Virus record (IMG/VR): IMGVR_UViG_3300032046_000082
Location: 1-39,185 of that record
DNA: 39,185 bases
Direction: 5' to 3' (one strand)
From: a virus
This document shows, in pieces, positions 7,042 to 38,705 of the stretch (position 1 is its first letter; every line of letters starts with the position of its first letter). A model generated the notes under the pieces. The model worked only from the letters and a program-made list of their open reading frames with translations. It did not search any database and had not been told where the DNA came from. Position numbers and translations under genes: made by a program.

Positions 7042-7051
7042 CTATAAATAC
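7042..7051 (-). promoter_or_regulatory. GTATTTATAG element, putative late promoter of the gp15-like gene
   Basis: Exact core in gene sense, 13 bases before the ATG at 7028. The same bases read TATAAATAC toward the plus operon at 7060, but only 8 bases separate it from that ATG and no plus-sense GTATTTAT is present. Confidence 0.6.
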
Positions 7052-7413: not shown

Positions 7414-7448
7414 GTAGATTCTGCGTATAATAGGAAAAAGGATATTTT

Positions 7449-9293: not shown

Positions 9294-9294
9294 T

Positions 9295-10399: not shown

Positions 10400-10402
10400 A
10401 TT

Positions 10403-13201: not shown

Positions 13202-13215
13202 AATGAGAACTAAAA

Positions 13216-13473
13216 ATGGTGGCATTTTTATTGGTATTGGTTATAATACTGACAGGTAGTGCTATCTACACGTATCTCCGATACATTGCAGAAAAGAAAA
13301 GAAGAATAAAGTTAGAGGAAGATAAAATCCCCACCAAAGATTTACAATTTCTTGAATTCACAGTTGATATGTATATCAAATATGCACAAGAATTAGATAT
13401 ACATTCAAAAGAACAGCACGAGTATATCGTAAAGCAATTGGAAAGGATTAGAGAAAAATATTTGAATCCTTAG
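13216..13473 (+). CDS. Small single-span membrane protein
   Basis: 85 aa. Residues 2-22 (VAFLLVLVIILTGSAIYTYL) form an N-terminal transmembrane helix, followed by a basic stop-transfer stretch (EKKRRIKLEEDK) and an amphipathic charged helix to the end. Last gene of the plus-strand metabolic operon; it overlaps the stop of the convergent gp14-like gene by four bases. No family recognised; a membrane tether or inhibitor role is possible but unsupported. Confidence 0.55.
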   Translation: MVAFLLVLVIILTGSAIYTYLRYIAEKKRRIKLEEDKIPTKDLQFLEFTVDMYIKYAQELDIHSKEQHEYIVKQLERIREKYLNP

Positions 13474-14006
13474 ATATTTGTCATAAAAGGAAGTACGTCT
13501 TCCTTAACTGGTATAGCAACTATTTTTCTCCAATAAGGTCTGAAACCTCCAACTGATCTAGATGTAATATCGTTAACATTATCGGCTTCCATAATTTCAT
13601 AGAATCTTTCTTTTTCTCCAGAGAAATTAAATGAAAGGTAATTACCTCTAAGAATTTCGGTTTGTTTTTCCTTGATTTCATCAACGTAAATTCCAACAGT
13701 TAATGGGCCTGAATCATTTCTAGGTAATCCATCTTCTCCGAAATACTTGGTCTCCCCATCATCCACATCAAGCATAACATGAAATTCTATTGGTGCAAAG
13801 AATTTCTTATCTGCAGGTTTTGCTTCACCGTATATATCATCGACTTTTGAATTGATGGCATCAATTCTATAGTATTTTACTTTGAATGGAGAATCTGAAT
13901 TAAGATATTCTCTACCATACATAATATCAAGATCAAAACTATTATCACTCATAAAGAGGCCATAGCGTTCTTGTTCTAAATCAATGTTTTGTTTTTTCTT
14001 TGCCAT
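13470..14006 (-). CDS. gp14-like neck protein
   Basis: 178 aa. It begins with a basic stretch and then has ERYGLFMSDNSFDLDIMYGR. The middle (FFAPIEFHVMLDVDDGETKY) and the GNYLSFNFSGEKERFYEIME segment resemble the T4-type gp14 neck family, in which a 'F.PI' strand, a glycine-rich turn, and a '...D.L.F.......Y.I..V' strand recur. In T4 gp13 and gp14 form the collar joining head and tail. It lies one base downstream of the gp13-like gene in the same transcript, as expected for partners. It is shorter than T4 gp14 (256 aa). Moderate confidence from pattern and pairing. Confidence 0.55.
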   Translation of the reverse strand: MAKKKQNIDLEQERYGLFMSDNSFDLDIMYGREYLNSDSPFKVKYYRIDAINSKVDDIYGEAKPADKKFFAPIEFHVMLDVDDGETKYFGEDGLPRNDSGPLTVGIYVDEIKEKQTEILRGNYLSFNFSGEKERFYEIMEADNVNDITSRSVGGFRPYWRKIVAIPVKEDVLPFMTNI

Positions 14007-14007
14007 A

Positions 14008-15126
14008 TTATCCTGTCATGATAGGGAACATTGGAGGTTGAAATCCTCTTTCTTTATTTACATTAGCTGCAATTTCTGCTCTATCTCTGGTCATTTGAAC
14101 TAACGACAACTTCATTAAGGATTGAAGAATCAATTCCAATGTCTTTTCTTTAAGTTGAATACCTTCTTCAAGAATATGTCTGTAATCCATAGTTAATTCT
14201 TTTTGTGCCGAACCAAGTTCACCACTATAGAATCCTCTAATACCACCAATAGCTATTTTGCATTGTGCAATAAATAAATCTCTTATTTGTGTTCTAGCCA
14301 CAGTATTCAATCTCTCCCATTTAAGAATACTTATTGGTGCATCGCTAGGTAATTTTACTATGTCAGTATTTTCTTCTAAACACTTATCTCTTCCTTGAGC
14401 ATTGGTATCATAGTAAAAATACCAAACTTTTGAACCTTCGTAATGTCTTGAAAAACCATTAGAAATTTCATGGCGACTTCCGGGGATTGGATACAAGTAC
14501 AATAATTTAGTACCATTTGGGCCACCAGTAACTCTGTATGTTAATTCAGATTGAAGAATTCTTCTTTTTGTGCTTCTGTCTTGTGCAGAAAGAAGCAAGG
14601 AATAGGTGGGCTGAACGTACTGGGCAGGTCTACCTAGATAGCTCCAACCGAAGTTACTAGCACTCCAATTGGTAAGAGCAAAAGGGTCTACAAGCCCACT
14701 ATCGATCTGTGGTGGGGTAGTCCATAGGATTTCATTTATCTCTCTGTGGGCTGGAATTACGTAAATCTGAGTGTCTGCAGAGATAACCACGAAATCTCTC
14801 TTTAGATGCCACGTATTGCCCTCTGGAGCGTTCATTCCTAAGCCAACCTGCTTAGAGTAGGCATGGGTGAAACTACGCATAAAGTCCGTAGATTTGCTTG
14901 TATAGGCTTCCACGAAATCAGCACTATTTATCTCCAATCCTTGTAGTGCAACCCATTGTTGCTCAATTAACCAATTATTAAGATAACTGCTATAATCCTC
15001 AATTACCATTTCCAGATATGAGTCCATCATTTCCTCTTTTAATTCAAATGGTCTGAGAGGATAACCCATAACGTGTTTTACGAAAAGGTATAATTTTTCT
15101 CTATCTTCTTTGGTTATTAGTGACAT
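14008..15126 (-). CDS. gp13-like neck protein
   Basis: 372 aa. The N-terminal helical part has a MGYPLRPFELKEEMMDSYLE motif. This is the 'lG.P...ieL....i...i..al' pattern of T4-type gp13 and related connector proteins, followed by DFVVISADTQIYVIPAHREI and NEILWTTPP, equivalent to the 'y.v......Y.lP..v..V..V' strand pair. C-terminal helices (LIAQCKIAIGGIRGFYSGEL) follow. Adjacent gp14-like gene and a late-type element 13 bases before the ATG support a neck role. Longer than T4 gp13 (309 aa). No membrane segment. Confidence 0.6.
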   Translation of the reverse strand: MSLITKEDREKLYLFVKHVMGYPLRPFELKEEMMDSYLEMVIEDYSSYLNNWLIEQQWVALQGLEINSADFVEAYTSKSTDFMRSFTHAYSKQVGLGMNAPEGNTWHLKRDFVVISADTQIYVIPAHREINEILWTTPPQIDSGLVDPFALTNWSASNFGWSYLGRPAQYVQPTYSLLLSAQDRSTKRRILQSELTYRVTGGPNGTKLLYLYPIPGSRHEISNGFSRHYEGSKVWYFYYDTNAQGRDKCLEENTDIVKLPSDAPISILKWERLNTVARTQIRDLFIAQCKIAIGGIRGFYSGELGSAQKELTMDYRHILEEGIQLKEKTLELILQSLMKLSLVQMTRDRAEIAANVNKERGFQPPMFPIMTG

Positions 15127-15139
15127 AATCGCTTATTTT

Positions 15140-15149
15140 ACATAAATAC
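15140..15149 (-). promoter_or_regulatory. GTATTTATGT element, putative late promoter of the neck operon
   Basis: Exact core in gene sense, 13 bases before the ATG at 15126. The plus operon at 15159 begins only 9 bases from its other side and has no plus-sense copy. Confidence 0.6.
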
Positions 15150-15158
15150 TAGAAATCT

Positions 15159-15656
15159 ATGTTTTCATTCGAATACTCAATAGAGTTAAATCTTCATGGT
15201 AGACCAATCATTATACCCTCAGAAAAGACAGATAAAGAACTCGATTTCATCGAACATAAGTTTATGGCTCTAGAAATAACTAGAGCAATCATAACAAATA
15301 CATTAGATGATTATAATGAAAATCCCGAAAAGCATCCATTGCAACCATCTGATCTCACAAATTTATTGGCAGCAAAATCGAATATTGAAAAAATTTGCGA
15401 TATATTTGCAGATGCAATAAAGAACCAATTTGATCTAATGGATGATGCTAATGCAATACTTAACCCACAGACATATAATCTGCAGGTTAAGACAATGAAT
15501 GATTTATATTCTTTGAATTACAATGGCATTATTTATGAGACGACAATTTTTAAAAGAGTAGAAGGGTTACGTGTAAAAGTTCTTGCCGATATGAGAATTT
15601 ATGAATTAAGGGGTGGAATAGATAATAACAACTGGATTGATGTCACAAACGAATAG
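15159..15656 (+). CDS. Protein of unknown function, first gene of the helicase operon
   Basis: 165 aa, unrecognised. The N-terminus (MFSFEYSIELNLHGRPIII) is beta-like; the middle is helical and acidic (LLAAKSNIEKICDIFADAIK); the C-terminus returns to strands. No metal-binding or nucleotide-binding motif and no membrane segment. It overlaps a 51-codon gene by 17 bases, which in turn overlaps the helicase, so all three are probably co-translated. A replication-accessory role is guessed only from context. Confidence 0.5.
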   Translation: MFSFEYSIELNLHGRPIIIPSEKTDKELDFIEHKFMALEITRAIITNTLDDYNENPEKHPLQPSDLTNLLAAKSNIEKICDIFADAIKNQFDLMDDANAILNPQTYNLQVKTMNDLYSLNYNGIIYETTIFKRVEGLRVKVLADMRIYELRGGIDNNNWIDVTNE

Positions 15657-15795
15657 AAGAAAAAAAGATTTCTACACTGAGTTAATGTACATACATTATA
15701 ATTGGTCTCCATTAATGAGAAGAGCATTAGGTGTACCAAAATCACACATTAAATCTTTAATCAAAACATACGAAAAATACGCATGGGCGAAATAA
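15640..15795 (+). CDS. 51-aa small protein bridging two overlapping genes
   Basis: A short open frame that starts inside the end of the 165-aa gene (17-base overlap) and ends 13 bases inside the helicase gene. The product, beginning MSQTNRRKKDFYTELMYIHY and ending YEKYAWAK, is basic with a Trp/Pro-rich middle. Without it there would be a 126-base gap in an otherwise gapless operon, and the double overlap matches the style of neighbouring junctions. Its role is unknown; it may simply couple translation. Confidence 0.55.
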   Translation: MSQTNRRKKDFYTELMYIHYNWSPLMRRALGVPKSHIKSLIKTYEKYAWAK

Positions 15796-17348
15796 CACAT
15801 AATTACGACCCAAGATCAACACCAGAACAAGTAGCTATTTACGATTGGGTTGTAAATGGGACAGGTAATCTACTGATTAGAGCACGTGCAGGTTCAGGAA
15901 AGACCAGTACTTTAGTTGGTATTTCAAAACTTCTTGATCCATCGATCAGAACAACATTTCTTGCATTCAATAAGCATATTCAAGTTGAGTTGAAAAGTAA
16001 ATTACCAAAGCACGTGTTCTGTTACACTGCGCATGGACTTGGATATTCTGCCATTAAGAAGAAATACAAAGATGTTGTTGTTGACAATCTTAAAGTCGAT
16101 AAATTGATCAATAAACATCTAAAGACTTGGAATCCTAAACAGATTGACAATATTGTTCTGTACATAAAGAATTTCAAGAAGATGATTAATCTGATTAGAT
16201 TATCGTTGACTCTTAATAAGAAATATGTGCCTGATCTTTGCGAAAGATATGATGTTAAATTCGATAGTCAAGATATTGATAGGATGTTTTTGATTCTGGA
16301 AGAAATGCTCAATGATAAGAAGACAATTGATTTCACCGATATGGTATATCTTCCAGTTGTTGATCCTAAGATTTGGTTATTTCCTCAAGAATTTGTTTTA
16401 ATAGATGAAGCCCAAGATTTGTCTAAAGCACAGCACGAGCTTGTAAAGAAGTGCGTGAAAAAAGATAAGGCAGGTAAGTTTATTGGAAGAATGGTTTTTG
16501 TGGGTGATGATATGCAAGCTATTTATGGATTTACTGGTTCAGATGCGTTCTCATTCATGAACCTATCTAAAATACCAAATACTATAATTCTCCCATTGAC
16601 AACGACATTCAGATGTGCCAAAAATATCGTTCTTGAAGCTAATACCATAGTAAAAGATATTCGACCTATGGATAATGCCCCTGATGGTGTTGTACGTAAA
16701 GGATCAGTACTGGATGAAGCCGTTGCAGGTGATTTTGTATTATCCAGAAAGACATTTCCATTAGTAAAGATGTTCTTTGATCTTCTCGTTCAAAACAAAA
16801 AGTCGTATATTAAAGGAAGTGACATTGGTAAAACGCTAATTGACTTCACATACGGGAAGAATTCAATGTCACAATTAGACGCATCATTAACAAATAAGCT
16901 ATCAGAGTGTCGTGCTAATTTGGCCAAACACGGTGTTATTAATTATCAAGATGATGTGGGATATACTACCTTAAATGATATGGTAAAAATTCTTCGTTTC
17001 TTAATGACTATGGTTGATGGAAATATAGAAGCATTAAAGGAACGTATAGAATATATATTCAGAGGTGGTGGCTCGGAAGAAGAATTGATAGATGAGGATG
17101 GCGTACCTATTATTAATAAAAGTGATGGTATACTTTTAAGTACTGTGCATAAAGCAAAAGGTCTTGAATCAGATAGAGTGTTCATTATTATGCCAAAAGA
17201 TATGCCATTAAGAACATCACAGCCTTGGCAATATCAACAAGAAATGAATTTAAAATATATTGCTATAACACGAGCTAAAAGAGAACTAATCTATGATATG
17301 GATTGGGCTGTTGATGATGGAACCTTTGAATCCTTCACGAAGGATTAA
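15783..17348 (+). CDS. UvrD/Rep-type superfamily 1 DNA helicase
   Basis: 521 aa with the SF1A motifs in order: Q-motif region STPEQVAIYDWV, Walker A ARAGSGKTS (34-42), motif Ia FLAFNKHIQ (59-67), motif Ib TAHGLGY, Walker B LIDEAQDL (206-213), motif III GDDMQAIYGFTGSD (241-254), motif IV region TTTFRC, motif V STVHKAKGLESDRVFII, and motif VI AITRAKRELI. All key Lys, Asp-Glu, Gln and Arg residues are present, so ATP-driven 3'-5' unwinding is expected. The length is shorter than UvrD (about 720 aa) and near that of compact phage helicases. A replication, recombination or repair role fits its operon. It ends convergently with the membrane-protein cassette. Confidence 0.92.
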   Translation: MGEITHNYDPRSTPEQVAIYDWVVNGTGNLLIRARAGSGKTSTLVGISKLLDPSIRTTFLAFNKHIQVELKSKLPKHVFCYTAHGLGYSAIKKKYKDVVVDNLKVDKLINKHLKTWNPKQIDNIVLYIKNFKKMINLIRLSLTLNKKYVPDLCERYDVKFDSQDIDRMFLILEEMLNDKKTIDFTDMVYLPVVDPKIWLFPQEFVLIDEAQDLSKAQHELVKKCVKKDKAGKFIGRMVFVGDDMQAIYGFTGSDAFSFMNLSKIPNTIILPLTTTFRCAKNIVLEANTIVKDIRPMDNAPDGVVRKGSVLDEAVAGDFVLSRKTFPLVKMFFDLLVQNKKSYIKGSDIGKTLIDFTYGKNSMSQLDASLTNKLSECRANLAKHGVINYQDDVGYTTLNDMVKILRFLMTMVDGNIEALKERIEYIFRGGGSEEELIDEDGVPIINKSDGILLSTVHKAKGLESDRVFIIMPKDMPLRTSQPWQYQQEMNLKYIAITRAKRELIYDMDWAVDDGTFESFTKD

Positions 17349-19311: not shown

Positions 19312-20991
19312 TTATTGAAGTAAACCGATACCGAATGTATCCAAACCATCACACAATACCTTACCGAAGTAACGGTTGATGATGAACTTCTTAGCGTATC
19401 TGGTCATGATACCTCTGATAGGCTTGAAGTCAAATGGATTGTACATTACAGGAGTCAATTGCATTGGCACGTAAGGTGCGTAGATGTAACCAGACTCAAG
19501 AATTGAACTTCCTTTGTGTCCAATCAAACATGTGTTTGCTGGCGCATAAGGATCACGATATACTTGGTATCTTCCTTGAAGTGTTCCCACTTTTTCGATA
19601 CCCATGTTGTACTTGTCCTGTTCAGGAGCAGCACTTGATACGTGGAAGTACTCCAAGTTATCAAACACGGCACTGATTTCAGGAGATACTACAACCCAAG
19701 TTGCACCACCTCTAAGAGTTGACTTGTGAATTTGTGCAGAGATTTGGTTGATTTTGGTAATCAAGGTTTGGTTCCAATCTTTCTGAGTACCGTAGTACGT
19801 AGTTGATTGCTTTCTCAAACCGTTATAGTCCCAACGTGCAACCCAAGCAGCACCTCTTCTAAGGTCTCTAAGGATTTCTCTATCAACCTCAGCAGCCATT
19901 TGCTCAGACAATAAAGCTGTCAATTCGGCTTCTGCGTCAATATTGTGGAATGCACTTACGTCTTGCGCAAGTTCAGGAGTCCACTGTGCTCTCATTTTTC
20001 TTGTCTCAACAGAAACTGTTACTTCGTCAAGGCCGAAGGTTACTTCTGCCATTTCAGAATCTTCTTCAAGTGAAGAATAAGTTCTGTAAGAGAATTTAAA
20101 GGTAGTACCTGTAGTTACAGCAGTTAATGCTTGGTAACCGTTAGTTCCACCGTAGGTTAAGTCGATGATAAGAGTTAAAATACCTGCAGTAGAAACAATT
20201 GCTTGTCCGTACTTCTGTACTTTAACGTTATAAGGAATTGAACCACCTGCAGCGATGTTCTGATCAGTGTAAGGAGATACTGCGTTGAAGTTTCTATTGC
20301 TAGTGATAGCCAAAGAAGCTAAAAAGCTTTCTGTATCCATAGGTACACCTACTGGGCCTACAATCTTACCTTGTGAGGTAGTTGTGAAACCACCAACAGT
20401 TGCAGTTACGAATTTGTCACCTTGTATATAAGAAGGAGTTTGAGTACAAGTACCTGTTACGGTAGTGAACTTACCCTTGCTAATATCAAACAATGATGTA
20501 CCTTCGTCAGATGCACTTGAAGCGTAGAACGCATCATACAATGAACGTGTTTCGTACTGAGTACCACCAGTTCCTCCACCAAAGCTGTTAGCGTTAGCTG
20601 CGTTTGAATACGCACCATCTGGTGATGTGTGACGGTTGTTCGGAGCAGCACTTCTTACAGAAACTTTAGGGTTCATGTAATACAATTTACCAATAGGTAA
20701 ATTCAATGCCTGTACAGATACGATGTCGTTAGCTAAAAGTTTTGCGAATACTCTTCTGATTACAGGGAATGCTACGGTTTCGAATTGACCGCTTGATGCT
20801 GAGTCTGTAGACTCGTTGATCATATAAGACAATTGATTTTCGAACAACTGCGCACAGTTTTCTCTAATGTTGCCTTCAAGACCTTTCAACAAACCGATTT
20901 TATCCCATCTGTTTGTGATAAGTTCTCTTTGTTCTCTAAGTTGTTTCAACCCAATGTTTCCAACTTCTTTACTTTCTGTTAAAAAACCCAT
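19312..20991 (-). CDS. Major capsid protein, gp23-like
   Basis: 559 aa. The N-terminal region LFENQLSYMINESTDSASSG then ETVAFPVIRRVFAKLLANDI matches T4 gp23, in which a helical N-terminus is removed by the prohead protease and the mature chain begins just before the '.P.vm.mvRR..P.LiA.Di.gVQP' segment. Here the equivalent is VIRRVFAKLLANDIVSVQAL. The likely cleavage is after Glu60 (INE/S), close to Glu65 in T4. The C-terminal segment (PYVPMQLTPVMYNPFDFKPI) and GIMTRYAKKFIINRYFGKVL also fit the family. HK97-fold shell subunit. It has its own promoter-like element upstream and a strong terminator downstream, consistent with very high expression. Confidence 0.92.
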   Translation of the reverse strand: MGFLTESKEVGNIGLKQLREQRELITNRWDKIGLLKGLEGNIRENCAQLFENQLSYMINESTDSASSGQFETVAFPVIRRVFAKLLANDIVSVQALNLPIGKLYYMNPKVSVRSAAPNNRHTSPDGAYSNAANANSFGGGTGGTQYETRSLYDAFYASSASDEGTSLFDISKGKFTTVTGTCTQTPSYIQGDKFVTATVGGFTTTSQGKIVGPVGVPMDTESFLASLAITSNRNFNAVSPYTDQNIAAGGSIPYNVKVQKYGQAIVSTAGILTLIIDLTYGGTNGYQALTAVTTGTTFKFSYRTYSSLEEDSEMAEVTFGLDEVTVSVETRKMRAQWTPELAQDVSAFHNIDAEAELTALLSEQMAAEVDREILRDLRRGAAWVARWDYNGLRKQSTTYYGTQKDWNQTLITKINQISAQIHKSTLRGGATWVVVSPEISAVFDNLEYFHVSSAAPEQDKYNMGIEKVGTLQGRYQVYRDPYAPANTCLIGHKGSSILESGYIYAPYVPMQLTPVMYNPFDFKPIRGIMTRYAKKFIINRYFGKVLCDGLDTFGIGLLQ

Positions 20992-21033: not shown

Positions 21034-21043
21034 GTATAAATAC
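21034..21043 (-). promoter_or_regulatory. GTATTTATAC element, putative late promoter of the capsid gene
   Basis: Exact core in gene sense, 42 bases before the capsid ATG. The leader between them is almost entirely A and T, without a Shine-Dalgarno sequence. Confidence 0.65.
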
Positions 21044-21069: not shown

Positions 21070-22539
21070 TTACACGATTTGTTTCTTTGGCGTTAAGCCA
21101 GAGTATCTCAAAATCTTATTGATGTGTTCATTTTCTACGCTACCAACTGATTCCTCAAGTTTGTTTGCAGATGAATTCTCAACAATTACTGAACTTACCT
21201 TCTCTTCGAGTGATTCTTTGGTTGATTTCTTAGATTCAGACAAATCCTTCAACAATTTCTTGTAGGTTTCTTCTGATTCGTGGATGTTACCAACTTTCTT
21301 GAATTTTTCGATAATTTCTTCTTTATCCTTTACTGAAAGTGCAAGACCTTCGTTGATCAAAAGATTGTTCACATACGAAATATTCGTATTTAAAACAGCC
21401 ATTTCTTTCAACTGAACTCTGTACTTATCAAGGGCGTTTTTGTAGTCACCATTCAATTTCTTGATAGCGTCAACATCTTTTACTTTCCCTTGTGATTCTG
21501 TCAATGCAGTCTTAGTTTTATTCAACTGCTTTGTCAAACTTAAGTTTTCTTTAAGAACACCTGTCAATTTCTTAGCTTCGTTTTGCAACGCAACTCTGAT
21601 TCTATTGGCAGCGTATCCCTTGCCGTTCTCAATTCGTGGTTGCATTTCTGCTCCCACCAACTTATTAGCAGACAACGCTACTCCGTGTACCTCATCAACT
21701 GCAGGTGCAGCTTCTGGTGCAGCGACTTCTGCAACTTGGGTCTCATCCACTTTGTTAGCAGGTTTTCCAGCGTCTCCGCTTTTAACCTTCTTGTACATAG
21801 AGTATAATTCTCCAATTTTTGCTTCGTCCATCTGTGCCTTGTATGATTCACCATACATCTCTGACATTTTTGAATGAAATTCATTCATCATTGCTTGGTT
21901 TGTGCTCATTTCTTCCATTTCTTTTAAAAATTTACCCATTCCTTCGTACATCTCTTTCATTTTGGCCATAGGGTCATTAGGATTCGACATTGCAGGTGAT
22001 GGTACGGTTGCTTGCGCTTGTGGCGCAGCTTGAGGTGCTTGTTGTTGTAGTTGCATTTGTTCGGCATTATTAACTTCTTGCATCATTTCATCGATCTCGC
22101 TCTCAATTGAGGTCAAGTCGAAATTATTACTCCCATCTGATGGCATTTGTTGTTGTTGATCATCTGATCTCACTACTTGGAAATCATCATCTGCATTAGC
22201 ATTATCAAACGCTGCTTCCACTTCTGATAAAGAAGCTTCTTTCATGTTGATTGCTGCAGGTGATACCATTCCCTCTTTTACGACTTCGCCTATTGGTTTT
22301 TGAATCATTGTTGATTCCTGTACTTTTTTATCTACATTAGTAGACTCTTGAGTTTTCGCCTTATTAAAAGGCTCATTTTTATTTTCAGATTCCTTTAAAA
22401 ACTTTGTTATCAAACTGTCTAATTCTTTGCTGTTATTTTCAGCTAGTTTATTTTTGGCAGCTTTAATTACTTCTTCGTACTCTAAAAGGGCTTCTTTTAG
22501 AACTGATTCGCTACTGTTATTTTTTTCCTTTTCTTTCAT
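21070..22539 (-). CDS. Prohead core/scaffold-like protein (gp22 position)
   Basis: 489 aa, highly charged and predicted mostly helical. The N-terminal 70 residues are Lys/Glu-rich. Residues about 125-195 are Gln/Met/Pro-rich and probably disordered (QQQQMPSDGS, AEQMQLQQQAPQAAPQAQA). The C-terminal half is a long coiled coil (LKENLSLTKQLNKTKTALTE). Several L-x-E-S sites could be cut by the prohead protease. It sits between the protease and the capsid genes, the place of gp22 in T4, whose product forms the internal scaffold and is degraded during maturation. Assignment rests on order and composition, not on sequence match. It is longer than T4 gp22 (269 aa). Confidence 0.65.
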   Translation of the reverse strand: MKEKEKNNSSESVLKEALLEYEEVIKAAKNKLAENNSKELDSLITKFLKESENKNEPFNKAKTQESTNVDKKVQESTMIQKPIGEVVKEGMVSPAAINMKEASLSEVEAAFDNANADDDFQVVRSDDQQQQMPSDGSNNFDLTSIESEIDEMMQEVNNAEQMQLQQQAPQAAPQAQATVPSPAMSNPNDPMAKMKEMYEGMGKFLKEMEEMSTNQAMMNEFHSKMSEMYGESYKAQMDEAKIGELYSMYKKVKSGDAGKPANKVDETQVAEVAAPEAAPAVDEVHGVALSANKLVGAEMQPRIENGKGYAANRIRVALQNEAKKLTGVLKENLSLTKQLNKTKTALTESQGKVKDVDAIKKLNGDYKNALDKYRVQLKEMAVLNTNISYVNNLLINEGLALSVKDKEEIIEKFKKVGNIHESEETYKKLLKDLSESKKSTKESLEEKVSSVIVENSSANKLEESVGSVENEHINKILRYSGLTPKKQIV

Positions 22540-22566: not shown

Positions 22567-22576
22567 TTATAAATAC
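22567..22576 (-). promoter_or_regulatory. GTATTTATAA element, putative late promoter of the scaffold-like gene
   Basis: Exact core in gene sense, 27 bases before the ATG at 22539. Confidence 0.6.
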
Positions 22577-30237: not shown

Positions 30238-32301
30238 TTATTCAATTTTATCAAGGGTTGTAGATATATCATCATCCAAACCTTTAAATATATCTTCATC
30301 TTCCTTCACTTCCTCATTCAATTTTCTAAGTTCTTCCTTATTTTCTTTATATTCAAAATTTTCGGGGTTTGAATGATCGGTATTGAATTCACCTTGATTA
30401 TACAACAATTTGTCGATTTCGTTGATCATCATTTTAGCGTTTTTATTCAATTCATCATTTTTAACCTTAAAGGCTTCTTCGGTATTCTTTTGACTTTCAA
30501 CATTTTGTCTAGTTACCAAATTGTTTAAAAGTGCATCAAAATTAGACTCACTTAAGGCTGGCTTACCTTTAATACCCTTAGATTCTTGTTTAGGGGCTGC
30601 TGGTGCGCCTCCTGCTGGAGCAGGTGCTCCTGCACCACCTGCGACTAATCCTTGCGGCTCAGGCAATTGTGAAGGGCTTTGAGGGGCATTTGTTGCTCCT
30701 GCTGCAGGTGGCTGATTCTGTTCTGGTTGACCCTCACCTTCGGCAGGTGGTGGCCCTTGTTGCATTGCTGCAGCATTAGGATTACCATATTTCTGATCAA
30801 TGTCATCAAAAATACCAGTTTTAGGAATAACAACTGCAGTATCTTGCAATTCTTGGCTAATAGCTCTTTCCATTCTTTGGTTTTTGAAATCTTCAATGAT
30901 TTCTTTATCTGACCAACCAAGAATATTTCTCTTTGCCCATGTGTGTGAAGATGCTGCGATTCCAGAACCTTCATTTCTAGTGATTTCAGTATACAATTGA
31001 ATTTTAGCTGTAAGAGTTTCTGTCTTTAACTTATCTGCTTGACTAGATGGATTCGTTAATGATAAACTGAATTCATGAAGATCATCCTCATACCCTTTAA
31101 GATACAAATGAACGATAGCCATCTTGTTTAATTCTTGAAGTAATGCTTGTTGAAGTCTATTAATCTTTTTAGCAAAACGTACATCCATTTGTGCAAGGTT
31201 TTTACCTTCACCTGCTGATCCTGAAAAACCAAGAAATGGTTTAGGGATACCTAGACCACTAAATAAATTATCACGCAAATATGCAATGTCTGCAATAGCA
31301 TCAAGGTTTGTAGCTCCCGGTAAGGTTTCAATAACAGTACTCTTACCATCACGTACTGGAACAAAAATATCTTCATCGTTTCCCAAGATATTAAACCTGT
31401 AATCGATCTGACCTGTGTTGTTATAAGTTTGTGTTTGCTTCTTAAATTTAGTAGCCACCTTATACACATACGCTTCAATATCTTTATCTTCTAAATTACC
31501 AACTTCGATTTTATAAACTCTCTTTTCTCCTGCTCTAAGTATACGATAAGTTAGCATAGCGTCTTCTGCCATAACTAATTGTCTGAATACTCTTCTTACT
31601 TTATTTAATACTGACGAACCGTATGGAAGATACTTATCATCTCCAAGCAATCTAAAATGTGCTATTTCGAATAGGTTGAATTCATCTCCGGTAGTTCTAT
31701 TTCTAAAAATGGTTCTGGCCTTTCTATCTTTGACCTCATCTTTTCTTTCAACATCAAAATTTACTAGCTGTCTTACATAACGAATACCCTTTCCCTTTTC
31801 ACCAAGCATATAGACGAAATTGTCTCCATACTTCGCAAGGTTTCTAGCCCAAAACGGTAAATTAACGTTTACATTAACAACACCATAGAAAAAATCTTCG
31901 AGAATAGTTTTAATTCTCTCTTTCTTAGAATAGATATTCAACATTTTTCCATTGTCACCAATGGTAGTTGATTCCTCCGAAAACAAATCCAATGCAGATG
32001 CAATCAATGGGTAATATTCCATACCCTCATAATCGACATATGCTGGCATACGTGCTGCTTCATATTGCATAGCCTTTTGAAAGCCATGCTGTTGAACTTT
32101 ATAGAATTTATCGAAGATAGATTCTCTTTGCTGCATTTCCAATGCTGCTTTTTGAATATCTTCGGGATTTTCTGCTTTGAGAATGATTTTTCTCTTTTGC
32201 TCGTTATCTTTTTCAGCCTGAGCACCAAATCCAAATCCGTCCAAATTCAAGAATGAATTTAATTCGGAATAGATTGTTTTTTTGTTGTTGTTGTCAGCCA
32301 T
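30238..32301 (-). CDS. Portal protein, gp20-like
   Basis: 687 aa; T4 gp20 is 524 aa. The core shows the T4 portal pattern: YPLIASALDLFSEESTT (helical wing entry), INIYSKKE-like strand (MLNIYSKKERI), PFWARNLAKYGDNFVYM, EIAHFRLLGDDKYLPYGSSV, then LVMAEDAMLTYRILRAGEKR and VYKIEVGNL, and the KPFLGFSGSAGEGKNLAQMD segment. The dodecameric ring at the head vertex carries the packaging motor. A long C-terminal tail (about residues 510-687) is Pro/Gln/Ala/Gly-rich, then Lys/Glu-rich, is not part of the T4 portal core, and contains an LSE/S site. The terminase gene lies immediately upstream. Confidence 0.9.
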   Translation of the reverse strand: MADNNNKKTIYSELNSFLNLDGFGFGAQAEKDNEQKRKIILKAENPEDIQKAALEMQQRESIFDKFYKVQQHGFQKAMQYEAARMPAYVDYEGMEYYPLIASALDLFSEESTTIGDNGKMLNIYSKKERIKTILEDFFYGVVNVNVNLPFWARNLAKYGDNFVYMLGEKGKGIRYVRQLVNFDVERKDEVKDRKARTIFRNRTTGDEFNLFEIAHFRLLGDDKYLPYGSSVLNKVRRVFRQLVMAEDAMLTYRILRAGEKRVYKIEVGNLEDKDIEAYVYKVATKFKKQTQTYNNTGQIDYRFNILGNDEDIFVPVRDGKSTVIETLPGATNLDAIADIAYLRDNLFSGLGIPKPFLGFSGSAGEGKNLAQMDVRFAKKINRLQQALLQELNKMAIVHLYLKGYEDDLHEFSLSLTNPSSQADKLKTETLTAKIQLYTEITRNEGSGIAASSHTWAKRNILGWSDKEIIEDFKNQRMERAISQELQDTAVVIPKTGIFDDIDQKYGNPNAAAMQQGPPPAEGEGQPEQNQPPAAGATNAPQSPSQLPEPQGLVAGGAGAPAPAGGAPAAPKQESKGIKGKPALSESNFDALLNNLVTRQNVESQKNTEEAFKVKNDELNKNAKMMINEIDKLLYNQGEFNTDHSNPENFEYKENKEELRKLNEEVKEDEDIFKGLDDDISTTLDKIE

Positions 32302-32330
32302 TTTTATAGTTTTTTATAGTTTTTTATATA
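32301..32330 (-). repeat. Three 10-base tandem repeats in the portal leader
   Basis: The plus-strand unit tttttatagt occurs twice in a row and a third time as tttttatata, which merges into the late-type element. Read in gene sense this gives repeated AAAAAACTAT units between element and ATG. A single AAAAAACTATA follows the elements at the terminase gene and at 38696-38705, suggesting that the unit is functional. Confidence 0.7.
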
Positions 32331-32335
32331 AATAC
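32326..32335 (-). promoter_or_regulatory. GTATTTATAT element, putative late promoter of the portal gene
   Basis: Exact core in gene sense, 24 bases before the ATG at 32301, followed by tandem AAAAAACTAT units. Confidence 0.65.
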
Positions 32336-32358: not shown

Positions 32359-34371
32359 TTATCTACGGTTTTTGTCAAGACCTTTAAAAAGCCAAGAATG
32401 ATCCGCATAAGGGTTATTTTTGTGTGATCTAAAATCTTCGGGCATACCATGTTTTTCCTCATTAGGTTTAATGTGCGAATTATCGTTCACAACCATAATA
32501 GCGTTTAGCATACTTTTGATTTTTTCGGTATTATCACCTTTCTTCATCATATCACAATTAAGGACATAAAGACCTATAGCAAGGCCCATTATATCATCAT
32601 CGTGAAAAGTTCTTCTGTGATCAGCTAATCTTGTAGGATTCTCACTAGTAATAAATGTCTTGAATTCATTAGTCATTCTAACTGAACGGATAATAACATC
32701 TTCCATACGTATGCTTCTTTCCATTTCTTGAAGAACAATAGGTCTATTATTTCCTATCATGAATCCCGGGATCAAATCGACCTTTACCATATGTCCACCA
32801 CCAATATTTTTCTCAACAGTTTTCACATAGACATTCAATCTATCACGTGTTGGTTTGTGTTGAATTTCTGCATAGTGTAAATTGATATAACCAAAATTCT
32901 TCAAGCTCTCAATAGTTGAAACACCATATCCACCACTAACATCAATAACACAATAGGCATTATTATATCTGGTTCCATAATAATATGCAATTTCAGCAAG
33001 TTGTTGTGGTGTTACCTTTCCATAGTATTCAGCAACTTGCTCAGATACTCTACGTTTAATGTCTTTAGTTTTTTGAATACCATTCTCGATATATGTCTTT
33101 GGTTCTATCAAATCACGATACTTTAACATGTTCAATGTAGAATAGTCATTTCCATACCCACTAGCAACATCGAGAGCCATTACATACTGAGCACCCTCAA
33201 TTGGGTCTTCAAAAATATACATCAACTTATCGTTGTACTCGGTTCTGATGGGTTGTCTTAATTCATTATCTTCAATTCTTTTAATGAACTCTTCATTAAT
33301 AAAGTTATCTCCAGAACCCAAAAATGAACATAAAATTTCTTGAGAAAATCTTCTCATATCACCGTTATAACCAGCCTTTGCATTTTCGAACCAAGGACTA
33401 GTTGCTGAGTATCCATCTAGAATTAATTTTGCACGTTGATCCTTAGAAAAATTAACATCAGTAATTCTTATCTCACTATCTTTAAGCTCATTTTTAACCC
33501 ATTGCAATCCAACATTGTATCTTGGATCGTTATACCACCATAATTCAATTGCTTTAAATGGTTTACCTTTTGTTCTTGCTGTTTCAAAAGTCTTATAAAA
33601 TATTGGGTCTAATCCATTTGGAGTAGATACAAAGATTACTCTACCACCTGTGTTTCTTACAGCAGCACCAGCAGATTCCCAAAACTTTTCACCCTTTTCT
33701 GTCCACGCAGTTTCATCCCAAAAAATTAGTGTTGGGGTCGGGCCTCTAAGTTTGGTAGCAGCAAATGCTTTCATTTGACTACCATTTGCATATTTCATGT
33801 GATGTGCAGAATCCTTATTACCAACCTTTTGTCTTAGATAAGCAGGACAACCATCAATAAAGTCCTTGATGTCACTCATTAACTCATCACGTGCTGTTTC
33901 AAGTTTATCTGCAATAACTGCAACATATCTATTCTCATTAAACAATACGTACCACGAAATAAAAGCACAAGTTGTTGTTGACACACCAGCCTGTCTGTAT
34001 TTGTTAGCTATATTCTCTTTGTTTTTTTGATAAGAAAGTACTAGTTCCTTTTGAAATTCGAATAGTTTGAATGGTACAATTTGACCACTTTCTCCTTTAG
34101 TTTGGTCAAAGACAGTGAGATAGGTCTCAATGAAATAGATGGGATTGATTGCACACTTAAGGTATTCATCTGTCTGCTCTGAAATTGTAAGAATGTTTGC
34201 TTGTTTGGCAATACCTTCTTTTGTGATGACAATTGGTTGATCAACATATTTTTTTCTGAGTTCTTTTACTTTCTTTTTAAGCTCAATTTTTTTGACTTCT
34301 TCTTCGGTAAGGGGTCGGTCATTATTATCTGGCTCAAAATCTAACTCATCTTCAATGTTTTTCTTAGACAT
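32359..34371 (-). CDS. Terminase large subunit, gp17-like
   Basis: 670 aa (T4 gp17 is 610). After a charged N-terminus, FKLFEFQKELVLSYQKNKEN precedes the Walker A-type loop RQAGVSTT (126-133), with Ser-Thr-Thr after Gly-Val in place of the usual Gly-Lys-Thr/Ser. Walker B plus catalytic Glu is TLIFWDE (214-220), and FVSTPNG is the coupling motif. The C-terminal RNase H-like nuclease has acidic strands at YVMALDVASGYGNDYST, YCVIDVSGG, and HDDDIMGLAIG. This is the ATP-driven packaging motor and headful nuclease. It lies upstream of the portal gene, with two late-type elements in its leader region. Confidence 0.93.
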   Translation of the reverse strand: MSKKNIEDELDFEPDNNDRPLTEEEVKKIELKKKVKELRKKYVDQPIVITKEGIAKQANILTISEQTDEYLKCAINPIYFIETYLTVFDQTKGESGQIVPFKLFEFQKELVLSYQKNKENIANKYRQAGVSTTTCAFISWYVLFNENRYVAVIADKLETARDELMSDIKDFIDGCPAYLRQKVGNKDSAHHMKYANGSQMKAFAATKLRGPTPTLIFWDETAWTEKGEKFWESAGAAVRNTGGRVIFVSTPNGLDPIFYKTFETARTKGKPFKAIELWWYNDPRYNVGLQWVKNELKDSEIRITDVNFSKDQRAKLILDGYSATSPWFENAKAGYNGDMRRFSQEILCSFLGSGDNFINEEFIKRIEDNELRQPIRTEYNDKLMYIFEDPIEGAQYVMALDVASGYGNDYSTLNMLKYRDLIEPKTYIENGIQKTKDIKRRVSEQVAEYYGKVTPQQLAEIAYYYGTRYNNAYCVIDVSGGYGVSTIESLKNFGYINLHYAEIQHKPTRDRLNVYVKTVEKNIGGGHMVKVDLIPGFMIGNNRPIVLQEMERSIRMEDVIIRSVRMTNEFKTFITSENPTRLADHRRTFHDDDIMGLAIGLYVLNCDMMKKGDNTEKIKSMLNAIMVVNDNSHIKPNEEKHGMPEDFRSHKNNPYADHSWLFKGLDKNRR

Positions 34372-34384
34372 CTATTATAGTTTT

Positions 34385-34394
34385 TTATAAATAC
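34385..34394 (-). promoter_or_regulatory. GTATTTATAA element, proximal putative late promoter of the terminase gene
   Basis: Exact core in gene sense, 13 bases before the ATG at 34371, followed by AAAACTATA as at two other genes. Confidence 0.7.
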
Positions 34395-34412
34395 TCATAA
34401 ACGCAAAACCCG
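34386..34412 (-). repeat. Element-plus-hairpin-arm repeat, copy A
   Basis: The plus-strand 27-base stretch from TATAAATACTCA through GCAAAACCCG recurs nearly identically at 34472-34499, about 86 bases away. Each copy joins a late-type element to the first arm of a hairpin. Confidence 0.75.
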
Positions 34413-34465
34413 ATACATATCTTGATGTTCGGGTTTCGAATCTCCTTCCTCCGAATGGTAGGATG
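34404..34465 (-). ncRNA. Possible small RNA between tandem elements
   Basis: If the distal element at 34471-34480 starts transcription, the first about 60 bases would contain a short bulged hairpin (CCTACC-ATTC-GGAGG, around 34448-34459) and then the long hairpin 34406-34436, followed by TTTTGCGTTT. It contains no start codon with a meaningful frame. This could be a short structured RNA, or only the long 5' leader of the terminase mRNA. Confidence 0.25.
34406..34436 (-). terminator. Hairpin, possible terminator or leader structure
   Basis: An 8-bp stem (AAACCCGA with TCGGGTTT) continues, after one bulged T, into a 4-bp stem (ACAT with ATGT) closing a 6-base loop. On the minus strand it is followed by TTTTGCGTTTATG, a weak T-tract. 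It lies between the two late-type elements. Confidence 0.5.
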
Positions 34466-34470
34466 AGCAT

Positions 34471-34480
34471 CTATAAATAC
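34471..34480 (-). promoter_or_regulatory. GTATTTATAG element, distal to the terminase gene
   Basis: Exact core pointing at the terminase gene, 99 bases before its ATG, directly after the terminator of the upstream operon. Confidence 0.55.
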
Positions 34481-34499
34481 TCAAAAAATGCAAAACCCG
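34472..34499 (-). repeat. Element-plus-hairpin-arm repeat, copy B
   Basis: Partner of 34386-34412: same TATAAATACTCA start and GCAAAACCCG end, with one extra base and one or two changes between. Confidence 0.75.
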
Positions 34500-34515
34500 T
34501 CACATGAACGGGTTT
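34493..34515 (-). terminator. Intrinsic terminator after the 34560-37414 genes
   Basis: An 8-bp stem (AAACCCGT with ACGGGTTT) with a 7-base loop. On the minus strand TTTTGCATTTTTT follows, overlapping the next late-type element. The plus strand also has a T-rich tail (GTTTACTTTT), so it may act both ways. Confidence 0.7.
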
Positions 34516-34559
34516 GTTTACTTTTCTCCACTTACAATTTTACTATGGAAGATAGCACG

Positions 34560-35066
34560 TTAAAAATCTATTCCATTATCTATCTCGTCATCACCCTCTT
34601 CTACATCTTCTTTATCCAGTACTGGAGTTGCAACAACAGGTTCCTTCACTTCACTTTCTTTAAGCATGATGTCTCTGGTAAGAAACAAATCCTTAACTTC
34701 CGATGCCTTCATGCCATAATGAAAAACAAGAAGTGGAGTTTCATCGTAAAGCACATCATTGTTATCACTCTCAACGTTCTCGTAGGCTAGACAATGGATG
34801 GTGTAATAACCATCAATATATGCCCTATCGTTTAATTCATGCAAACAAATTAAATCAAGTTTTTTTGTTTTAAGAGATAAGACCATATCAATTGATTCTT
34901 GTGGTGGAGCGTCAGCATTTCCATTAGCTGGAACATCATTCCATCCACACGCATCGGTATCAATTGAAGAAGGGTCTTTACAGAATATAAATTCGTAAAG
35001 ACCCTGCCCCTTATTGTCATAACCGATCTTTAAAACATAACAAAGTTTTAGATCGTCTTTATCCAT
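34560..35066 (-). CDS. Acidic protein of unknown function
   Basis: 168 aa, unrecognised. The N-terminal part (LKLCYVLKIGYDNKGQGLYE, then FIFCKDPSSIDTDACGWNDV) looks like a compact alpha/beta fold. The C-terminal 30 residues are strongly acidic (KEDVEEGDDEIDNGIDF) and probably disordered. Its start shares a base with the stop of the 782-aa gene, so the two are co-translated, and a terminator follows. Its place between a probable head protein and the terminase suggests a packaging or head-assembly accessory, without direct evidence. Confidence 0.55.
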   Translation of the reverse strand: MDKDDLKLCYVLKIGYDNKGQGLYEFIFCKDPSSIDTDACGWNDVPANGNADAPPQESIDMVLSLKTKKLDLICLHELNDRAYIDGYYTIHCLAYENVESDNNDVLYDETPLLVFHYGMKASEVKDLFLTRDIMLKESEVKEPVVATPVLDKEDVEEGDDEIDNGIDF

Positions 35067-37414
35067 TATTTTTTGTACTTCGATAACAAATCACTGTTTT
35101 TCTTAATCTCTGCACTTACCATTTCATCAAGTTTCTTTGATAATTTTGATTTAGATGCTTCATTAAGTGAAGGCTTTTTTAAACCTAATTGTTCTTGAAT
35201 TTTAACATTGATGATTGCTCTCAATTTAGCTTTAGCACTTTCAGAAACGTCTTCTTTTTCAGCTTTTTCTTCTTTCTTTTCTTCTGCTTTAGATTCCTTT
35301 TCTGCTTTATTCAATGATTGAGAATCTTTAGCAAAACCGAATTTTTCTTTCTTTTCACCCTTTTCTTCTTTTTCACCTTTATCTTCTGCCTTTTCTTCTT
35401 TCTTCACATTTTCTTTTGTATCGTCATCATCCTTCTTCTCAAAATTCCATGTTTCGTCAACGTACTCCATTACTGGTTCCAATGACTTATATTTCTTAGG
35501 TTTTACTGAGAATGTCTCAACACTTTCAGCAAATCTTTGGAAACCACTTTCAACAACACCTTCTTTAACTTCTGGACTCATGTATTCTGCAATTGTTTGC
35601 ATATCAGCACCAGCATAGTTACCATCACATTCGTTAGCATATCCGTTAACAAGTGATACCATTTCCATGATAGAAACTTCATTCACGTTTTCAGGATTGT
35701 AACCTCTTTCAGCCATATAAGACTTGAAAGGACTTGCTTGTTTAGTTGCATTGCCCATTGCAGCAGCATTAGGAGCACCAGCACCAAGTGCTAATTTATC
35801 TCCTTTTGATGGAACTGCACCAGTAGAACCTGCACCTGCTGCAGTAGCTACACCATTTCCACCTTCATCTTCCAAGCCCATAGCTGCAAGATGTTGGTTA
35901 ATTGCTTCTTCAATTTCGTGATCTTCTGGAATAGCCATTGCCATTTCATCAACTTCACTATCAGCACTAGCACTACTTGCACCAGCATCTGGATTATCTT
36001 CCACACCAACTGGATTTGCAGAAACTGGAGAACCATTTGATTCTTCACCTTCTTCACCAGCTTTTAAAATTTTATTTGAAAGTTCTCTCTTAAGATCGGA
36101 ATCTAGATTAGCAAGTTTGCCATCGAAAGCTGCAAGAATTGATTTCAAGAAACCACCAACCATTTCGTCAGTCAATTCGGTTGCTCTGATTTTTTGACCA
36201 GTCTTACCTACTAATTTCTCTACATCCTTAACTGCTGCGTCATCGCTACCTGCATCACCAGCACCTGCTGTTGCACCCGCATCAGCAACACCTGCTGAAC
36301 CAGCTTCTGGTGATGGCATTTCTGAACCCGCTTCTGCACCAGAGGCATCACCTGCTGGAGCTTCTGCTGATGGTACTTCTGCTGAACCAGCGTCACCAGC
36401 ATCGGCTTTAATATCCAATGCATCTAATGCTGATGCTGCTGCATCTAAGTCTGCTGTTTCTTCACTACCCTGTACTGGAGCACCTGCAGGAGCTTCTACA
36501 GATTGTCCTGCTCCCGGTTCTTCTGGAGATTTTTCTTCTTCACTACCAAAAGTTTCAGCAACAATTGCCTTTTCTTTAGTAGCTAAATCTTTGAAATGTT
36601 TCTCATCACCTAAATCAGCTTTAAGTTTTGTACCTGTATCAGCCTTTTTATTAGTATCTGCAACTTTTTGTGCTTTAGAAGCACCAGTATCATTACCGTT
36701 AATTTTTTCTTTTGCAATTTCAGATTGGCTAGGTGTTGTAGCTTTTGGAGCTTGACCTTTCTTTTCTGTGTCTGCAGTTTCTTGTGCTGTTCCAATATCT
36801 TTTCTATCAGCACCAGTAACTGTTGATGGTTCGTGGAAAGTTTTATTCTTAGCACTTGCATCATCTGATTTATTGCTATCGGCAACACCTTGTGCTTTAG
36901 AAGCACCAGTATCATTACCATTAATTTTTTCTTTTGCAATTTCTGCTTTTGGAGCATTCTCAGCTTTTGGAGCAGCACCAGTAGCCTTTTTGTCAGCTAC
37001 TACTTGTGCATTAGCAATTCCACCCTTATCTGCGTTTGTCTTTGAAAGCAATTGTTCTTCTTCGTTGATTGTTTTTGCTGGATTGAATTTTCTATCCAAG
37101 CTTTCGTTTAATGCGCTAACATAAAAATCTTTGATTTTTGATGCTTCTGCTAAACTATTATACTTGTACTTAAGTTTGTTTTCCAAACCACCAATATATG
37201 TGAAGTGTTCAACAGCAATTTCACCTTTAGTGTTTGAAGACTTGATGTAATAGCTTTGGTCTTCTTTTACGATACCTAGTGCTGAACCATCGTTAGCTCT
37301 TGAATATTCGATCAAGGTCTGCTTGTCCAATGATGTTGACTTAGATGGGGCATCAACGCTGCTCAATTCTCTGAGTCTTTTATAGAAATTCTCTTGGTTT
37401 GAAAATGATTTCAT
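35066..37414 (-). CDS. 782-aa low-complexity protein, probable prohead core/internal head protein
   Basis: A folded-looking N-terminus (residues 1-110) ends in ALNES (101-105), a candidate prohead-protease site. Then follows a long Lys/Ala/Asp-rich region with an internal duplication: EIAKEKINGNDTGASKAQ occurs at 158-175 and again at 232-249, within longer similar blocks. Residues about 290-400 are Ala/Gly/Asp/Ser/Glu-rich and surely disordered. A globular segment (SPFKSYMAERGYNPENVNEV) and a Lys/Glu-rich helical C-terminus follow, with another SLNE/A site at Glu752. No enzyme motif. Composition and cleavage-like sites fit an internal scaffold or head protein. It has a late-type element upstream. 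Confidence 0.6.
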   Translation of the reverse strand: MKSFSNQENFYKRLRELSSVDAPSKSTSLDKQTLIEYSRANDGSALGIVKEDQSYYIKSSNTKGEIAVEHFTYIGGLENKLKYKYNSLAEASKIKDFYVSALNESLDRKFNPAKTINEEEQLLSKTNADKGGIANAQVVADKKATGAAPKAENAPKAEIAKEKINGNDTGASKAQGVADSNKSDDASAKNKTFHEPSTVTGADRKDIGTAQETADTEKKGQAPKATTPSQSEIAKEKINGNDTGASKAQKVADTNKKADTGTKLKADLGDEKHFKDLATKEKAIVAETFGSEEEKSPEEPGAGQSVEAPAGAPVQGSEETADLDAAASALDALDIKADAGDAGSAEVPSAEAPAGDASGAEAGSEMPSPEAGSAGVADAGATAGAGDAGSDDAAVKDVEKLVGKTGQKIRATELTDEMVGGFLKSILAAFDGKLANLDSDLKRELSNKILKAGEEGEESNGSPVSANPVGVEDNPDAGASSASADSEVDEMAMAIPEDHEIEEAINQHLAAMGLEDEGGNGVATAAGAGSTGAVPSKGDKLALGAGAPNAAAMGNATKQASPFKSYMAERGYNPENVNEVSIMEMVSLVNGYANECDGNYAGADMQTIAEYMSPEVKEGVVESGFQRFAESVETFSVKPKKYKSLEPVMEYVDETWNFEKKDDDDTKENVKKEEKAEDKGEKEEKGEKKEKFGFAKDSQSLNKAEKESKAEEKKEEKAEKEDVSESAKAKLRAIINVKIQEQLGLKKPSLNEASKSKLSKKLDEMVSAEIKKNSDLLSKYKK
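36669..36721 (-). repeat. 53-base direct repeat, copy 1
   Basis: Identical except for one base to 36891-36943, exactly 222 bases (74 codons) away and in the same reading frame. It encodes the KEKINGNDTGASKA block of the 782-aa protein. Confidence 0.9.
36891..36943 (-). repeat. 53-base direct repeat, copy 2
   Basis: Partner of 36669-36721; the single difference is a silent third-base change in an Asn codon. Confidence 0.9.
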
Positions 37415-37461
37415 TTGTATATTAGTTTTTAAATTTATTACACTAAGCTTATTAAACTTTT

Positions 37462-37471
37462 TTATAAATAC
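37462..37471 (-). promoter_or_regulatory. GTATTTATAA element, putative late promoter of the 782-aa gene
   Basis: Exact core in gene sense, 47 bases before the ATG at 37414, followed by AAAAAAGTTTAA. It lies between two minus-strand genes, so a plus-direction reading would be antisense. Confidence 0.65.
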
Positions 37472-37809: not shown

Positions 37810-38673
37810 TTATATTTCCATTTTTTGTTCTTTAACTGATAATTTTCTGTCAAAGCTATCATTTTTCAATTTTGATAGCTTATCTAAATAGCCTGAATTT
37901 CTCAATATTTTAAATGTTAAATTTTCAGGTGAATACTCCCCTTCCTTATATAATCCAGATTGTCTCATTTTCTTTATTCTATCTTTAACGACTTTAGCTT
38001 TTCCAGTAACGTCTTCTCCTTTATTGAAGTCATCAACTAAAATATCAATTTTATTTACAATATCGGAGACCTTCATTTGAACATCTGGTTCATCAATACT
38101 TATAAATTTCTTCATAGGCTTTCTAATCCAATCATTCTTCATCACCGAATATACACCAGATGACACGTTCTTTTCATTAGTATTCTGTACATAACATTCA
38201 ACGGTGTGGTCATCAATTTTTACTTCATGCTCTAATGACCACAATTCTTTTTTTGCTTTAAAGAACTCACCAATTATTTCAGGATCAGCATCAATTTCAT
38301 TAAAATCAAATAGAATATGAAGATCAACATCGGAATGTGGAGTGTAGTTGTAATTAGCACTACTACCAACCATTAGAATATCAGAAAACTTCTTATCTTC
38401 TATTTTACAGTATTTGATGAATTCAACAGCAATCTTTAACAATGCTTGTCTTACAACATCTTTCAATTTACCATCCTTATCCCATAATTCAGGATTAAGG
38501 TCATCATTCATCTTCACAGAGGACATATCAATGTCTTCTGGCTTGATAACTTCCGAAATCAAATCCTTAACTGTCTTATCAGTCCAAAATTTACTTGTCC
38601 AATATCTTGGCTTTGCATTTCGTCTGATCATCGGAATGGCTTTATCCTCTCCTTGTTTTGTTTCTATTGACAT
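37810..38673 (-). CDS. Late-type nucleotidyltransferase
   Basis: 287 aa. GSSANYNYTPHSDVDLHI (103-120) is a clear nucleotidyltransferase signature: Gly-Ser, then Ser-Asp-x-Asp with Asp115 and Asp117. The third acidic position is probably Glu159 in TVECYVQ. Before the core, LWDKDGKLKDVVRQALLKIA suggests a conserved N-terminal helical domain; after it a charged helical domain. Unlike the two nucleotidyltransferases in the plus-strand operon, this one is preceded by two late-type elements and sits among head genes. It may be virion-associated or act late, for example on tRNA, protein or DNA; the substrate is unknown. Confidence 0.75.
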   Translation of the reverse strand: MSIETKQGEDKAIPMIRRNAKPRYWTSKFWTDKTVKDLISEVIKPEDIDMSSVKMNDDLNPELWDKDGKLKDVVRQALLKIAVEFIKYCKIEDKKFSDILMVGSSANYNYTPHSDVDLHILFDFNEIDADPEIIGEFFKAKKELWSLEHEVKIDDHTVECYVQNTNEKNVSSGVYSVMKNDWIRKPMKKFISIDEPDVQMKVSDIVNKIDILVDDFNKGEDVTGKAKVVKDRIKKMRQSGLYKEGEYSPENLTFKILRNSGYLDKLSKLKNDSFDRKLSVKEQKMEI

Positions 38674-38695: not shown

Positions 38696-38705
38696 TTATA
38701 AATAC
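38696..38705 (-). promoter_or_regulatory. GTATTTATAA element, proximal putative late promoter
   Basis: Exact core in gene sense, 22 bases before the ATG at 38673, followed by AAAACTATA as at the terminase gene. Confidence 0.65.

Follow-up and report, generated by a model that had tools for sequence, protein, structure and literature searches.

What does it mean when the core of the T4 late promoter seems to lie backwards in front of the genes that it ought to serve? The question is raised by a 39,185-nucleotide (nt) stretch of viral DNA (IMG/VR record IMGVR_UViG_3300032046_000082, positions 1 to 39,185; hereafter the window), which is part of a T4-superfamily genome with matches to the phrog_138 capsid, phrog_207 head protease, phrog_213 portal and phrog_2 terminase families. 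Several of its genes are preceded by the word GTATTTATA, which a sequence-only reading had described as the T4 late-promoter core on the opposite strand. We find that this word is a genuine element in the sense orientation, and most likely a novel version of the T4 late promoter, with a divergent sigma factor as its probable partner. With a probability of roughly 0.87, GTATTTATA is a sense-oriented late-promoter -10 element (G-TATTTATA-nn-AAA, with no -35 element) that is read by a lineage-specific, gp55-derived sigma. In a large uncultured group of T4-related phages the late genes appear to be turned on from TATTTATA in the normal direction, and the group's own divergent promoter-reading protein probably explains the change in the box.

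The box points toward the genes that it precedes

The window contains nine exact copies of GTATTTATA, against a mean of 0.96 and a maximum of 4 in 100 dinucleotide shuffles. All nine lie upstream of an open reading frame (ORF) and on its strand, with 14-100 nt between the end of the motif and the ATG, so that the earlier observation that the T4-core complement reads toward the genes holds throughout. The boxes, with the three identified virion genes that they precede, are as follows.

741-749, plus strand: GTATTTATA box, 19 nt before ORF 769-2811
7043-7051, minus strand: GTATTTATA box, 14 nt before ORF 6198-7028, in the divergent gap with ORF 7060-7413
19312-20991, minus strand: major capsid protein gene, T4 gp23 type (phrog_138); one box
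21035-21043, minus strand: GTATTTATA box, 43 nt before the major capsid gene
22568-22576, minus strand: GTATTTATA box, 28 nt before ORF 21070-22539
30238-32301, minus strand: portal protein gene (phrog_213); one box
32327-32335, minus strand: GTATTTATA box, 25 nt before the portal gene
32359-34371, minus strand: terminase large subunit gene (phrog_2); two boxes
34386-34394, minus strand: GTATTTATA box, 14 nt before the terminase large subunit gene
34472-34480, minus strand: GTATTTATA box, second terminase copy, 100 nt before the gene
37463-37471, minus strand: GTATTTATA box, 48 nt before ORF 35066-37414
38697-38705, minus strand: GTATTTATA box, 23 nt before ORF 37810-38673

Capsid, portal and terminase genes are thus served, as by T4 late promoters, while the ORFs from 7060 to 17348, which include DNA polymerase, thymidylate synthase and helicase, have no box. 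The product of the box-preceded ORF 37810-38673 has a nucleotidyltransferase domain (PF01909 above the cut-off, PF22600 just below it).

Three sites had been placed between pairs of minus-strand genes, and they do lie there, at 34386, 34472 and 37463, one base above the positions originally given. Both flanking ORFs are on the minus strand in each case, and the complementary word TATAAATAC, taken as a T4 promoter, would indeed be antisense. It could be proposed that TATAAATAC nonetheless functions on the other strand as an ordinary T4 late promoter, one that makes antisense RNA or initiates bidirectionally; the T4 word is necessarily on the opposite strand at each site, and a few sites, such as 7043-7051, are in divergent gaps. 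Orientation was counted only in gaps flanked by two ORFs on the same strand, which removes the confounding effect of divergent gaps. The ratio of sense to antisense copies in such gaps is 6:0 for the window. In 80 related contigs, whose capsid proteins are 70-80% identical and several of which are fragments, it is 214:30; it is 60:10 in the single related 364.7-kb contig G004, 136:21 in 80 other loci, 19:2 in Flavobacterium phage immuto and 7:1 in Microcystis phage Mel-JY01. In the T4 control it is 0:4, and T4's own word is the sense one there. The other orientation accounts for only 30 of 244 copies in the relatives and none of six in the window, and the conserved 5' G and 3' AAA likewise point the element toward the gene. 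These counts rule out an antisense or bidirectional T4 promoter, to which we give virtually no chance.

Distribution of the box in relatives

When 8-mers were ranked by their enrichment in the 80 nt upstream of ORFs in the 80 contigs and the window, with no motif given beforehand, the top words included GTATTTAT, CTATTTAT and TATTTATA, at 17-21 fold. Upstream of ORFs, TATTTATA occurs 354 times in the sense orientation and 114 times as its reverse complement (79 records). The capsid genes of the 80 contigs have no box copy directly upstream, and the window's capsid promoter is therefore a local feature. In immuto (L090, L091), overlapping words such as ATCAATAATTAAAAC and TATATTTAGGTA are present upstream of many ORFs, and reverse-complement copies of them are nearly absent.

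In G004 the box is confined to part of the genome: it precedes 2 of 233 ORFs between 160 and 280 kb and 50 of 286 elsewhere (Fisher p=5e-12), and tail tube, baseplate and portal genes are among those that carry it. In the box-poor 160-280 kb block (L208-L213) a second motif, TTTCGTATA/TGTAACAA, is found more often upstream of ORFs; it is perhaps an early or middle promoter. The 69 occurrences in G004 give the consensus G(0.77)-TATTTATA-nn-AAA, and the distance from the end of the box to the ATG has its mode at 10-20 nt. The base frequencies of these occurrences show no signal beyond the G, the box and the AAA block, and none at -35 in particular. A C variant of the leading base, CTATTTATA, is seen across contigs at about one per capsid locus.

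Because the end of the box is in many instances 10-20 nt from the ATG, and the genes have no obvious Shine-Dalgarno sequence, the box might instead act in the mRNA, where it could enhance translation or be a site in the 5' leader at which the transcript is processed; the sequence-only reading had also allowed a role at the start site, in the leader or as an mRNA element. Such roles are made less likely by the conserved 5' G or C, by the AAA a few bases downstream, at the place expected for a start site, by a distance to the ATG that in the window varies between 14 and 100 nt, by the restriction of the box to part of the genome, and by the way in which it tracks sigma type (below). Genes in tight operons rarely have it: the gap upstream is shorter than 30 nt in 4-8% of motif genes versus 45-47% of others. 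In addition, terminator-like hairpins abut two of the window's copies on their upstream side and leave no space for another promoter:

34396-34470, minus strand: structured 75-nt stretch with a terminal hairpin, directly before box 34386-34394
34484-34530, minus strand: terminator-like hairpin with a U-rich tail, directly before box 34472-34480

We consider an mRNA element quite improbable. Both terminase boxes are directly preceded by a hairpin with a U-rich tail, and these are the two clear hairpins found beside boxes in the window. Intrinsic terminators are not a general partner of the box, being not enriched in G004, and the relatives had fewer hairpins than controls. The stretch at 34396-34470, between the two terminase boxes, has a well-folding sequence (z=-3.1) and may represent an attenuator or a small RNA; its matches to known Rfam families are weak and sub-threshold, the best of them on the other strand.

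Two changed bases account for the apparent inversion

The T4 late-promoter word TATAAATA is near-palindromic, and its reverse complement differs from it solely at positions 4 and 5. The likeness of the box to the complement of the T4 box follows from this near-palindromy, and describing it as a T4 core on the other strand misleads, since TATAAATA and TATTTATA differ at only two of eight positions. In T4 numbering A-10 and A-9 have become T, and T-13, A-12, T-11, A-8, T-7 and A-6 are unchanged. A two-base change suffices, and a protein reversed on the DNA is not needed. The earlier suggestion that a late sigma of this lineage reads an inverted-looking site is supported as far as the sigma is concerned, in that the box is overwhelmingly sense-oriented and the lineage has a divergent gp55-type sigma; the site itself is not inverted. 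In T4, gp55 holds A-12 (stacked on Y97), A-9 (N13, H95) and A-8 (T99) in pockets (PMC7892883), and two of these bases, A-12 and A-8, are retained in TATTTATA.

T4 late promoters (TATAAATA at -13 to -6, used with gp55, gp33 and gp45) likewise have a single 8-bp TATA box, no -35 element and A+T-rich downstream DNA (PMC2988020, PMC7892883). They too have head and packaging genes downstream, and the window's lineage has a gp55 relative. They differ from the clade's promoters in having A at -10 and -9, where the latter have T, and the clade's motif extends to a G (or C) on the 5' side and an AAA downstream. If the box has its T4 position, -13 to -6, the AAA block would fall at about -3 to -1, beside the start. 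The late promoters of KVP40, 44RR, S-PM2 and Aeh1 are lineage variants of the T4 box, with a/gC at -13/-12 in Aeh1 (PMC2988020), and among the phages analysed here cyanophage P-HM2 has CTAAATA and SCTP-2 has ATAAATA. Those examined all retain the AAATA half, whereas the clade has TTTATA or TTTAA instead. Our literature search turned up no TATTTATA late promoter in phages.

A divergent gp55 relative in the same phages

The gp55 model phrog_234 found only short relatives (about 110 amino acids, aa), in 3 of 21 large contigs. A profile of these (A1) led to a second protein of roughly 250 aa in five contigs, whose versions are mutually 78-81% identical, and one scan with it gave 80 loci. The search for gp55 that had been advised thus produced a divergent candidate of 240-290 aa in relatives and none in the window fragment. 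Profile comparison joins the 250-aa family (A3) to a family from immuto, Mel-JY01 and LR756508 (A5) at E=2e-16, and A5 to T4-type gp55 at E=8e-7 over 110 columns; the 186-aa gp55 of LR756511 is matched both by phrog_234 (7e-8) and by A5 (3e-8). Sequence homology to the sigma-2 domain of the gp55 family is established through these A3-A5 and A5-gp55 comparisons. The candidate is annotated as hypothetical in immuto (KNV73_gp118) and Mel-JY01 and is unannotated in LR756508.

In an AlphaFold2 model, residues 12-121 superimpose on region 2 of E. coli sigmaE with its -10 strand (4lup) over 93 residues at 2.9 Å with a Z of 8.6, a value within the range for helical models, and among the 50 structure matches listed nearly all chains are sigma factors. 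The model strongly suggests that the helical domain (13-121) has the sigma region 2 fold. The clade protein shares with the T4 gp55 family (phrog_234) its region 2 homology, a likely -10 recognition helix and a tyrosine aligned with Y97. It differs in its length, 240-290 aa versus about 155-190 aa in the aligned gp55s, and in an extra helical C-terminal domain.

The box is absent upstream of the sigma gene (0 of 78 loci), which is consistent with earlier expression of the sigma. Fourteen loci (L124, L125, L126, L127, L133, L137, L153, L154, L155, L161 and L183-L186) have a second, partial copy of about 120 aa, roughly region 2, downstream of the full one. A tie between this duplication and the C variant CTATTTATA is unsupported, as the loci with a duplicated sigma contain no C sites and these sites are found at about one per capsid locus. 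Separate gp55-like genes of roughly 110 aa occur in L093-L095, and one sigma subgroup (most loci of L162-L193) carries about 40 additional aa in frame within region 2, immediately ahead of the helix to which the T4 contact residues align. Next after the sigma gene, in the window lineage as well as in immuto and Mel-JY01, comes a small ORF of about 116-131 aa with no clear family (L101:2317-2709, L106:2221-2571, L194:3235-3630), a candidate late-transcription partner.

Sigma type and box type across phages

The divergent sigma occurs in the window lineage, immuto, Mel-JY01 and LR756508, and the same clade has TATTTA-type boxes. Both characters fall on the same side of one branch (support 100/99) of a tree of gp23 capsid proteins. 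T4, P-HM2, SCTP-2 and LR756511 have a phrog_234-type gp55 and TAAATA-type boxes, although in LR756511, the sister of the clade on this tree, TAAATA is weak (only 6:1). The contact residues of LR756511 are T4-like. Base-contact residues were compared in an alignment that excludes SCTP-2. The N13-aligned residue is N in the longer gp55 of LR756511 and in 5 of the 6 gp55s of family A6 versus A, T or D in the clade, and the T99-aligned residue is T in most classical rows versus Q or S in the clade (Moby also has S). The Y97-aligned tyrosine is conserved in the clade. The H95-aligned residue is F in several classical phages too and is not diagnostic.

The primary-sigma promoters of Bacteroidota have the -7 box TAnnTTTG. 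A promoter read by a host sigma, or by another phage regulator (a middle promoter, for example), would not require a gp55-type protein at all. The word is an A+T-rich -10 sequence like many bacterial -10 boxes, and the proposed pairing of sigma and box rests on co-occurrence. Against this, the TATTTATA core misfits the Bacteroidota box, the element has no -35 signal, and box type switches on the same branch as the sigma. Moreover, the same box is found in a phage of Flavobacterium (immuto, which infects Flavobacterium sp. LMO8) and a phage of a cyanobacterium, and therefore it follows the phage and not the host. A host sigma or other regulator seems to us unlikely, if a little less so than an mRNA element. 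As to a polymerase of the phages' own, a search with PF00623 for the beta-prime-like subunit of a multisubunit enzyme (phiKZ/AR9 type) had matches in 0 of 13 phage records, several of them incomplete, and in 14 of 14 control genomes, with a model that may miss phiKZ-type subunits; the search for a single-subunit RNA polymerase was silent even in its own controls and hence uninformative.

Several points weigh against reading the box as the target of a gp55-derived sigma. Compared directly, A3 and T4-type gp55 show no significant match (E=0.11), and sequence similarity to gp55 runs through intermediates only. Foldseek alone returns no match at E<=0.001, its E-values being 0.2 or worse. The sigma gene is absent from the window, a 39-kb fragment, and is linked to it via relatives. 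LR756508 has the divergent sigma, yet its word is TATTTAA (9:2) and not TATTTATA; recoding was rejected as the cause of the missing motif, the coding fraction being only slightly higher under recoding. The residue changes and the promoter change together represent one evolutionary event on a single branch, and their covariation is no more than suggestive. Finally, a search for the sliding clamp (gp45) with phrog_223, PF02916, PF00705 and PF02768 recognised nothing convincing of any type, a further difference from T4.

Proposed mechanism and the C-terminal domain

Under the sense late-promoter reading, GTATTTATA would serve as a -10 (TATA-box) element in the same direction as its gene, like TATAAATA in T4. 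Host RNA polymerase, equipped with the gp55-derived late sigma that the phage encodes, would melt the DNA at the box and begin RNA synthesis within a few bases downstream, close to the conserved AAA, and a -35 box would play no part; the shift in specificity would accompany the divergent 240-290-aa gp55 homologue. The motif and its orientation, enrichment and block restriction, the sigma homology and the clade distribution are computational observations, from which we infer the pairing of sigma with box, the start position, the use of the host polymerase and the late timing, the last because virion genes are served and the sigma gene itself is boxless.

The clade sigma has about 110 extra residues (about 143-250), helical and predicted to fold by themselves (predicted template modelling score, pTM, 0.73 when folded alone). 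No known fold matches this domain significantly. It can be aligned with sigma70 residues 530-610, in region 4 (6pb5, 4llg, 7bef, 5uaq), over 78-79 residues at 3.3-3.5 Å with Z 4.2-4.4, values in the range of noise. In most of the window lineage the protein ends in DY[LM][DE]D, which recalls the T4 gp55 tail LDFLYE; immuto and LR756508 differ. It is possible, if doubtful, that the clade has a natural single-chain late sigma, in which a gp55-type region 2 with altered -10 specificity (TATTTATA) is fused to a C-terminal domain that takes the role of gp33 or sigma region 4.

Implications

Genome papers look for T4 late promoters by the word TATAAAT (PMC3037559), and a search by that word would overlook this well-populated clade's late promoters or assign them the wrong direction. 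The analysis names a probable cognate sigma among proteins annotated as hypothetical in immuto and Mel-JY01, and the two-base promoter change, paired with changes at residues that contact those bases in T4, offers a putative case of sigma/promoter co-evolution. The longer sigma of the clade also bears on the division of the T4 late sigma between gp55 and gp33. Geiduschek and Kassavetis raised the question of why no fused gp55-gp33 late sigma exists (PMC2988020). If the single-chain protein proposed above is real, it would be the fused late sigma whose natural absence the T4 literature remarked on, and would open direct tests of the reasons for T4's split sigma.

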